Source: an uncultured bacterium
GTDB lineage: Bacteria > Verrucomicrobiota > Kiritimatiellia > RFP12 > UBA1067
Assembly: GCA_902764415.1 (NCBI GenBank)
Contig: CACWVU010000006.1
Location: 1-64,000 of the forward strand
Direction: 5' to 3'
DNA length: 64,000 nucleotides
Below, one piece after another: positions 61,814 through 64,000 of the stretch. The position numbers and the translations under genes are program-made. The notes beneath the pieces are model-generated. The model saw only the letters and a program-made list of their open reading frames with translations. It did not search any database and was not told the DNA's origin. The stretch's first letter is position 1. Each line of letters opens with the position of its first letter.

Positions 61814-61922
61814 TACTTCGCTCCATCATTAAGCTTCAATCAGCAACACAGGCGTGTGGCACATAGTACTCCCACCCCATGCGAAAAAAAATTATCCGAG
61901 CTTTCGTTCAAGCAACCTCGCA

Positions 61923-62810
61923 TCAGCTATTATTGCAACAATCAACTCTTTTCACCATGCCCAACCGCATAGGGGCGGCAGACTCTACTAGTTTTTCTGC
62001 CCAATCGGGGAATGCCCGATAAACAGTCTTATCCAAATACGCCTGGACGAATGGTGCAACATCATACTGACAACCCTCAGGAGGAGGCATGCCACATTCC
62101 ATATGATCCCTATAATCCGATGACATCATATAAACTGGTTCTAAGCAAAATACGCAGGTGGCGTGGAACATGGAAATTCGATCAAAGGCGTGCTTTAATT
62201 CATCAACGGCTGACTTCCGTTCGCTATCTATGCAAAGCAATCCATCGTTCAACGGGATGGCCTTATAATAATTCAGATGAACAGCATCATTCAACCATTC
62301 ACGAATATCCTTGCATTCTGAAGAATCAAGATACTCCACAACTCCCGCTATACTTGCCTCCCTCTTTAAGAAGTCCCGCATATCTTCATATCGAAGCGCT
62401 TTCTTCAGAGACTTTGTCTTGTTGTCTGCCAACCAATCAGATACATTAATATCAAACATTTTCTCAGGTTGAAGCCCCTGAATTAAGGGCCCTTCGTCAG
62501 TAATTGAATTTATAAATTCATCGTCTTTCTTCTTGAGTCTCGCCATAAAATACAAATTCACGATTGTCTCATCAAATAAGTTTCGAAGCAATGCTTTTGC
62601 GTCTGTTATATGACCCAATTCCAGGATTGCCTTAATAGATACAATCGAATTGGCTAACGATCCAAAAAAATAAGAATCATAGTTTATAATTGGATGAGCC
62701 TTGACCCACTTTGGAACAAAACACATAACGTTATCTGATAGGCAACGATAGAATTCCGATGCTTCGTTTAGCGATTTGAAAATTGCATGACCAAGGTATT
62801 CCTTGCCCAT
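61923..62810 (-). CDS. helical protein of unknown function in the AT-rich island
   Basis: 295 residues, mostly alpha-helical, no signal peptide or membrane helix. The segment HITDAKALLRNLFDETIVNLYFMARL resembles the helical core of DUF5677-like proteins often found beside defence genes, but this is by eye only. The start at 62810 is preferred because GGGAAGG precedes it at a proper distance; an ATG 39 bases upstream lacks one. Codon use is AT-rich and unlike the rest of the window, so horizontal acquisition is likely. Confidence 0.65.
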   Translation of the reverse strand: MGKEYLGHAIFKSLNEASEFYRCLSDNVMCFVPKWVKAHPIINYDSYFFGSLANSIVSIKAILELGHITDAKALLRNLFDETIVNLYFMARLKKKDDEFINSITDEGPLIQGLQPEKMFDINVSDWLADNKTKSLKKALRYEDMRDFLKREASIAGVVEYLDSSECKDIREWLNDAVHLNYYKAIPLNDGLLCIDSERKSAVDELKHAFDRISMFHATCVFCLEPVYMMSSDYRDHMECGMPPPEGCQYDVAPFVQAYLDKTVYRAFPDWAEKLVESAAPMRLGMVKRVDCCNNS

Positions 62811-62886
62811 TACAACCTTCCCGCCCTTATCGTTATATCCCCTAAACATAATTCCAACGACCTGCCTGCAGTAACGAAAACCAATT

Positions 62887-63518
62887 TCATTTATACCGCA
62901 GGAGTTTCTTAACCCGTTTGTCCCTGCGAATACCTTGCTTTAACTTTTCATATATTGCATTTAGATGCGAGAACTCCTCTACGACAAATGGCTCAAACTT
63001 ATTTACGCTATTGGCGAGACGTTGGGATGCTTGGCTTAGCTGCTCTGCAGACAAATGGCCATCCACTTGACCCGAATTTCGTTTAACATTGCGACAAAAT
63101 CCGACATCTCCTTCATCATCGGCCTCACATCTCTAGACGGGAAATCAGTGTAAACAACAACTCCAGACAAATCTCCATCTTGTTACACATTCTCGCCCAA
63201 CTTTACGAACCATGCCAACACCATAACAATCCTCGCCTTAAGAAGCACGGCGTCCCCAATTGTCTCCTTCAACTGCGGCAGCGACGCCAAGATATTTGCA
63301 TAGATATTCAGTTTCAATGACAATTGGCGCATTGCCTTTTCGTATGCCTCAAATCGGCGTACACATAGCATTTTCTGTAGATCCAAGCCGCTTGTGATCT
63401 TTGCTATTACTATAGAAGTTACAAATCCAGCAACAGCAATTATCAGCGCAGAATTCTGGCCACACCAATTAAGACCTTCGCGCAAAAATGCCTTACACTC
63501 ACTGCAACATGTTATCAT
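62887..63518 (-). pseudogene. broken membrane-protein gene (premature stop plus frameshift)
   Basis: The intact first part (63183-63518, 111 residues) has one membrane helix (about 23-45, ALIIAVAGFVTSIVIAKIT) and an RRFEAYEKAMRQLS helix. After its TAA the same frame stays open for 48 more codons (VVVYTDFPSRDVRPMMKEM). A -1 shift then gives another open stretch ending FEPFVVEEFSHLNAIYEKLKQ... and a natural stop at 62887. Read together, the three pieces look like one protein of about 210 residues with a TM anchor and a cytoplasmic helical domain. AAGGA lies before the ATG. Sequencing error is the alternative explanation. Confidence 0.6.
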
Positions 63519-63578
63519 AATATATCCTTAATTCGCAATAGTTGACTCTACAAAAAACGCAACACTGAATTCATGCGA

Positions 63579-64000
63579 TTACGCTCTATCAGTAATAGCT
63601 GCTTCTATCCCACAATAATTCTTCTCATCCGGTCGTTTGTAAGAATTAGCAGGCGCCTTGTCTTGGCGATACTCCGAAACCTCCATGTCTTCACTAATAA
63701 TGCCCGCCCTAGGCTTAAATAGGGCTAGCTGATACCTATCTTTTATATCTCGTCGCAATGTTTTGCTAATCGCATAAAACACATGTGTCCTATACGAATC
63801 GCTTTTTACAACGAAAGAAAATTGTGCTTTGCACAAATTGTCAAACAATTCTTGTATATTCTTTCCTTTCATCATGCGCTCATAGAGTTTACGCGAGAAA
63901 CCAACCGCAGACGAATCGTTAAGAGCCCCTTTCCCATATATCACAATTCCCACTCCAGTTTTGCGAATTATCTTCTTGGCGAATTTCTCCGCATTACAGC
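63579..64000 (-). CDS. C-terminal part of a CHAT-like (caspase-family) protein, runs off the window
   Basis: The frame is open to the window edge, so only the last 140 residues are visible. FAKKIIRKTGVGIVIYGKG, then NDSSAVGFSRKLYERMMKGK and NIQELFDNL, follow the pattern of the C-terminal end of CHAT/caspase-like domains (Gly-hydrophobic strand, ND..SA..F...LY..+..G, then an AL-type helix). The catalytic His-Cys would lie upstream, outside the window. About 65 extra residues follow the motif. AT-rich like its neighbours. The assignment is by pattern only; a GTG at 63953 would give a short independent protein instead. Confidence 0.5.
   Translation of the reverse strand, partial: CNAEKFAKKIIRKTGVGIVIYGKGALNDSSAVGFSRKLYERMMKGKNIQELFDNLCKAQFSFVVKSDSYRTHVFYAISKTLRRDIKDRYQLALFKPRAGIISEDMEVSEYRQDKAPANSYKRPDEKNYCGIEAAITDRA

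Follow-up and report, generated by a model that had tools for sequence, protein, structure and literature searches.

A low-GC defence island with a divergent CHAT protease gene beside a broken single-TM membrane-protein gene: possible protease-gated membrane killing

We analysed a stretch of DNA (the window) that makes up the leftmost 64.0 kb of contig C6, which is 70.7 kb long and comes from a 2.6-Mb metagenome-assembled genome of 92% completeness. An earlier note on the window had described an abrupt drop in base composition at about 61.8 kb, with AT-rich DNA from there to the window end, and this holds: the G+C content falls at 61.8 kb from ~0.65 to ~0.40, the flank up to 61.6 kb lying mostly at 0.60-0.73 and the DNA beyond at 0.36-0.50. 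The low-GC stretch continues past the window for a total of nearly 8 kb, to ~69.2 kb of the contig, where a GC-rich (0.67) region starts. This is an IS element with an rve-type transposase and 24-28-nt inverted repeats, and it forms the right border of the block. At the left border lies a fragment of the N-terminal part of a TPP enzyme, whose G+C content (0.54) is between those of the chromosome and the island. The truncated glycan gene that had been suggested for this boundary is plausible, since the fragment overlaps a glycosyltransferase-25 gene (E 1.4e-26), the assignment of the fragment itself to the TPP enzymes staying sub-threshold (Table 1).

All genes of the low-GC block are on the minus strand. 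From upstream, they encode a 65-aa protein, a PDC-M13-like protein, a DUF3990 protein, a second PDC-M13-like protein, the PD-T4-4_A and PD-T4-4_B proteins, and then a last set of four which, in order of transcription, are YbjN-like, CHAT (caspase-like) protease, single-TM membrane protein and helical protein. The gaps within this set are 19, 60 and ~37 bp, and the four genes have one G+C content (0.40-0.44). The YbjN-like gene and the PD-T4-4 and DUF3990 modules were outside the view of the earlier note. Predicted promoters and terminators were not above those in shuffles.

Table 1. Features of the island and its borders. Plain numbers are window positions, numbers after C6 are contig positions, and L003 coordinates are in parentheses.
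Feature	Position	Strand	Remarks
TPP-enzyme N-terminal fragment, 69 aa	61604..61813	-	left island border; PF02776 E 0.045, below cut-off
76-nt direct repeat, copy 1	61834..61909 (L003:3835-3910)	.	80% identity to copy 2
Helical protein, 308 aa	61923..62849	-	aberrant member of ~262-aa family; motif RCND[HN]xH (WLNDAVH here)
Remainder of broken TM gene past stop	62887..63182	-	same-frame codons, then frameshift; aligns to intact relatives
Single-TM membrane protein, first 111 codons	63183..63518	-	TM helix ~residues 24-42; ended by TAA stop
CHAT (caspase-like) protease, C-terminal part	63579..64000	-	full gene C6:63579-64643, 354 aa
YbjN-like protein, 200 aa	C6:64663-65265, beyond window	-	first gene of four-gene operon
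76-nt direct repeat, copy 2	C6:65379-65454 (L003:7380-7455), outside window		far side of four-gene block
PD-T4-4-like operon	C6:65680-67695 (L003:7681-9696)	-	ABC-ATPase + PD-(D/E)xK nuclease; just past window
37-nt direct repeat, first copy	C6:67754-67790 (L003:9755-9791)		89% identity between copies
DUF3990/PDC-M13 module	C6:67909-69085 (L003:9910-11086)	-	DUF3990 protein + small genes
37-nt direct repeat, second copy	C6:69115-69151 (L003:11116-11152)		
IS element	C6:69280-70697 (L003:11281-12698)		right border of low-GC block

Two different pairs of direct repeats are found in the block, each with two copies only in the whole genome. The 76-nt pair brackets exactly the YbjN-CHAT-TM-helical genes, and the 37-nt pair brackets the DUF3990/PDC-M13 module. 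We considered an integron attC reading of both repeats, and rejected it as no attC core could be recognised by eye; a tRNA or Rfam reading was likewise rejected, there being no Rfam match and no tRNA match. Copy 2 of the 76-nt pair showed no stable fold.

The operon next upstream of the four genes has the ABC-ATPase and PD-(D/E)xK nuclease pair that defines PD-T4-4, and its genes match PADLOC models for that system (PD-T4-4_A at E 6.2e-111; the B gene PDC-M47B at E 3.4e-25 and PD-T4-4_B at E 2.7e-8). PD-T4-4 was discovered in E. coli, in a functional selection for protection against phages (PMC9519451), and resembles WonAB (PMC12137116). Since a published phage-defence system is the immediate neighbour, the AT-rich block is, with good support, a horizontally acquired phage-defence island, and the defence context guessed at in the earlier note stands. 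We regard the PD-T4-4-like operon as a separate system and not as part of the four-gene operon. Its A gene was absent from all 20 relatives that we searched, which fits a recent gain. The DUF3990 protein (E 3.8e-47) and its small neighbours, which match the PADLOC candidate PDC-M13, look like a toxin-antitoxin-type module.

At the right edge of the window 139 residues of the second protein of the operon are visible, and the CHAT-like C-terminus that had been seen in them was borne out when the gene was followed past position 64,000. It is complete at 354 aa and has the CHAT His-Cys pair, H172 and C216, which alignment places on the catalytic columns of CHAT proteins and which sit in the [SG]xH and xxC contexts of that domain; the C216 codon (63996-63998) is the final full codon of the gene inside the window. 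The upstream sensor domains that had been expected of the full protein did not appear, as it has no large sensor domain. For the whole protein no Pfam family was reported even at E 10, the stock model PF12770 misses it, and searches of Pfam, NCBIfam, PADLOC and PHROGs gave nothing useful, so that annotation by single models overlooks it.

More sensitive comparisons do place the protein. Against a profile of six CHAT domains, query excluded, it scored E 1.8e-15 (the best among 2000 shuffles reached 0.11), and hhalign gave a probability of 97%, with H172 and C216 on the catalytic columns. As four of the six domains had been found with the query, that test was biased, and a second profile was therefore built solely from CHAT proteins found by the Pfam model; here the score was E 0.0036 (versus 1.2 for the best shuffle). 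Judged by its sequence, the 354-aa protein is a divergent CHAT protease. No close relatives of it were found in 84,980 species genomes, the viral collection, the plasmids or our order and phylum samples; what matches there were, among them one in the samples at E 0.0085, were weak and distant. A tblastn search of the plasmids (E<=10) returned eight records. The annotation of three of them is CHAT, and three of the eight encoded proteins have a length of 353 aa, near the 354 aa of the query.

The similarity of the first gene product to the YbjN family (PF10722) came from tblastn and alignment. Its plasmid tblastn matches are annotated as YbjN (E 3e-6 and 2e-4), and for a relative in a genome of the same order (G136) the PF10722 match falls slightly short of the cut-off (E 0.001); the protein of the operon itself is not matched by PF10722. 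Relatives elsewhere in the phylum lie in other kinds of locus, one set adjoining dynamin-like, AAA and DO-GTPase2 genes. One such locus in G136 (L018:1947-8814, contig C105) has two YbjN-like genes, one of them AAA-fused, beside dynamin-like and DO-GTPase2 proteins, and is a candidate NTPase-based conflict system. On an Oscillatoria plasmid (L015:5248-7107) a YbjN domain protein lies within a phage-tail-like cluster (baseplate, gp25, DUF4157). We found no YbjN-CHAT association in the literature that we searched, and it is a guess of ours that the YbjN-like protein is a sensor or partner of the CHAT protease.

Downstream of the CHAT gene is the single-TM gene, whose interruption the earlier note had recognised. 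It carries two lesions, a TAA stop after 111 codons and a frameshift ~36 codons further on, and we treat both parts as one broken gene because the alignment with two intact relatives (201 and 227 aa) continues across both lesions. The family was searched with a protein query bearing X at the lesions, the relative in a genome of the same genus (G198) being reached through an alignment. The G136 relative (201 aa) matches at E 5.4e-37 with 37-38% identity over nearly its full length, and the G198 relative (227 aa) at E 4.1e-85. All three proteins have one strongly conserved N-terminal membrane helix (GFVT[AS]I..AKIT.G) and a soluble part, in which a conserved helical domain finishes in DKRxKxLL. 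There were no usable relatives in viral contigs or plasmids, and hmmscan (E<=1) gave no match to a gasdermin family. The lesions could be sequence errors, as this is a 92%-complete metagenome-assembled genome; unless they are errors of assembly, the gene is broken and the pathway is probably disarmed here. Of the proposal that an inactivated toxic effector lies at this position, the interruption is confirmed in the sequence, and a toxic role may be supposed for the intact protein.

In G136 the TM gene (L116:259-864) lies 13 bp downstream of a gene (L116:878-3466) for an 862-aa protease with BspA-type leucine-rich repeats (LRR_5, 6e-29) and a trypsin-like domain (Trypsin_2, 8.5e-23), the protease gene itself following one for a DUF4062 protein; the trypsin part also matches the PADLOC models RT-Protease_XI (5.9e-23) and LmuA (2.9e-10). 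Thus in two genomes, that of the window and G136, the TM gene immediately follows a protease gene and shares its strand, and the two proteases are of unrelated families. In G198 the TM gene is 33 bp upstream of HsdM/HsdS/HsdR genes, a type I restriction-modification set that includes additional genes, and no protease adjoins it. That relative heads the restriction-modification island (L122:9271-18929, contig C69), in which a 424-aa gene lies between HsdS and HsdR. Two of the three family members found in the searched genomes adjoin a protease, and with three members only we regard the TM-protease pairing as a lead, short of proof.

The last gene of the operon encodes an aberrant member of a family found at 62 loci in genome contigs (L029-L090; Bacteroidota, Pseudomonadota, Chloroflexota, an Asgard archaeon and others), on two plasmids and on one viral contig (L125). 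The window protein itself had no match in phages. One family match is in a genome (G048) sampled as of the same phylum as the source genome. Members are ~262 aa long, those aligned being 41-64% identical to one typical member, and no Pfam or PADLOC model matches the family above threshold. The earlier note had taken the window protein for a soluble helical protein like DUF5677 or HEPN. The helical part of this stands, as good AlphaFold2 models of the window protein (pLDDT 81; all-helical) and of a typical member (pLDDT 88) were obtained; the likeness to DUF5677 and HEPN is remote. DUF5677 (PF18928) matches the window protein at E 0.0079 with 16.7 bits, below the curated cut-off of 27.1, and seven of 48 family members match it at E<=0.01 (best E 0.0022).

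The active-site motif of HEPN RNases is R(x4-6)H. The near-invariant family motif fits this pattern, and HEPN proteins have roles in abortive infection (PMC3710099). The place of the motif arginine is taken by R or K in 54 of 58 sequences and by L or W in the remaining four, the window copy having Trp and so falling outside the pattern; it also has 22 of 61 conserved columns changed, versus at most 10 in any other member. Foldseek comparison of the family models with solved structures gave no match below E 0.001. Second-look structural alignments listed HEPN (4nqf, 6tug) and Roquin ROQ (4qik) structures at Z 7.4-9.9 (for the typical member, 4nqf at 8.1 and Csm6 6tug at 7.4), values that are common for helical bundles and within their noise range. 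Probably the window gene is a HEPN-type hitch-hiker, separate from the other genes, whose product has lost the RNase arginine.

The part of the locus that we think defensible is narrower: next to a single-TM protein there is a divergent CHAT protease, and a relative of that TM protein is paired with an LRR-trypsin protease, an arrangement that would fit protease-gated membrane killing. The pairing of the same TM protein with an unrelated protease in a relative suggests a defence in which a protease switches on a membrane effector. From the genes of the operon, the CHAT motif and profile match, the TM family with its lesions and the defence neighbours, we infer a pathway in which infection would be sensed, perhaps via the YbjN-like protein, whose gene is the operon's one other intact gene that does not encode an effector. 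The CHAT protease, whose domain and His/Cys pair are evident, would then be switched on and would cleave or otherwise release the single-TM protein, whose conserved N-terminal helix could damage or depolarise the membrane and so stop the infected cell. We put the probability that the island's four-gene operon is such a protease-gated membrane-effector defence, with gasdermin-like logic in a different protein family, at roughly 0.4. The wider proposal, that the TM protein is the first of a new, non-gasdermin family of protease-gated effectors, paired interchangeably with CHAT and LRR-trypsin proteases in the defence islands of one order, is rather unlikely on present evidence.

With somewhat lower probability, the island is instead a scrapyard of unconnected defence genes and selfish genes, in which the CHAT, TM, YbjN and helical genes were joined by chance and form no single pathway. 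The earlier note's three-gene unit of protease, membrane effector and helical partner is not conserved as far as our searches reached, which favours this alternative: the trio was never found together elsewhere in those searches, no close CHAT relatives were found in them, the 62 helical-protein loci have mixed neighbours (some of them defence genes) with no CHAT, YbjN or TM relatives near them, and the TM protein occurs elsewhere without a CHAT or helical gene and, in G198, without any protease. One of the four genes, moreover, is broken (TM) and another aberrant (helical). Against a chance assembly are the shared strand and short gaps of the four genes, their uniform G+C content, the 76-nt repeat that brackets exactly these four, and the co-oriented protease gene that precedes the TM gene in two genomes, this being the part of the proposed unit that recurs once, with a different protease. 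The G198 locus would also suit a TM gene that may be a general passenger of defence islands.

Other bacterial caspase homologues cut host or phage proteins, and the CHAT protease here might do likewise, the TM protein then being no substrate but a sensor or membrane anchor by which the protease is recruited or held back. One TM helix with a conserved soluble helical domain would also suit such a role, and for Csx29, a CHAT protease, the cleaved target is a specific soluble partner, Csx30 (PMC10028731); we consider this role of the TM protein improbable. That the helical protein is the real effector, an HEPN RNase activated by the CHAT protease, is very improbable, for although the family motif and the listed HEPN structures point that way, the window copy has Trp for Arg and many altered columns, the Z values fall in the noise range of helical bundles, and the family has no CHAT partner elsewhere.

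Returning to protease-gated membrane killing, bacterial and animal immunity have in common the theme of a protease activating a membrane-acting partner. If our reading is true, the TM protein would change partners between two unrelated proteases and so offer a small, easily tested case outside the gasdermins, and the intact relatives in G136 and G198 allow a test without the broken window copy.

The operon resembles Csx29 of type III-E CRISPR (PMC10028731) in having a CHAT His/Cys protease that adjoins partner genes; unlike Csx29, the window protein has no TPR part and no CRISPR genes beside it, and ~100 aa at its N-terminus carry no domain assignment. Trypsin-like proteases activate pro-nucleases in several defence systems, and the nuclease-protease pairs of Hachiman, AVAST, Lamassu, DRT and Canu (PMC12799240) are similar in that a protease and effector pair has been acquired by different immune loci, and in that the G136 trypsin domain matches the PADLOC models LmuA and RT-Protease. 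They differ in that the partner here is a membrane protein and not an MBL-fold nuclease, and that the window protease is CHAT and not trypsin-like. Bacterial gasdermins, which work with caspase-like and trypsin-like proteases (PMC9079055), differ from the TM protein of the operon, which has a single clear helix at its N-terminus and a soluble part that is helical, and whose activation by cleavage is putative. They share with our operon and its G136 counterpart the gene for a small membrane-acting protein beside that for a protease of either of two unrelated folds, in defence loci.
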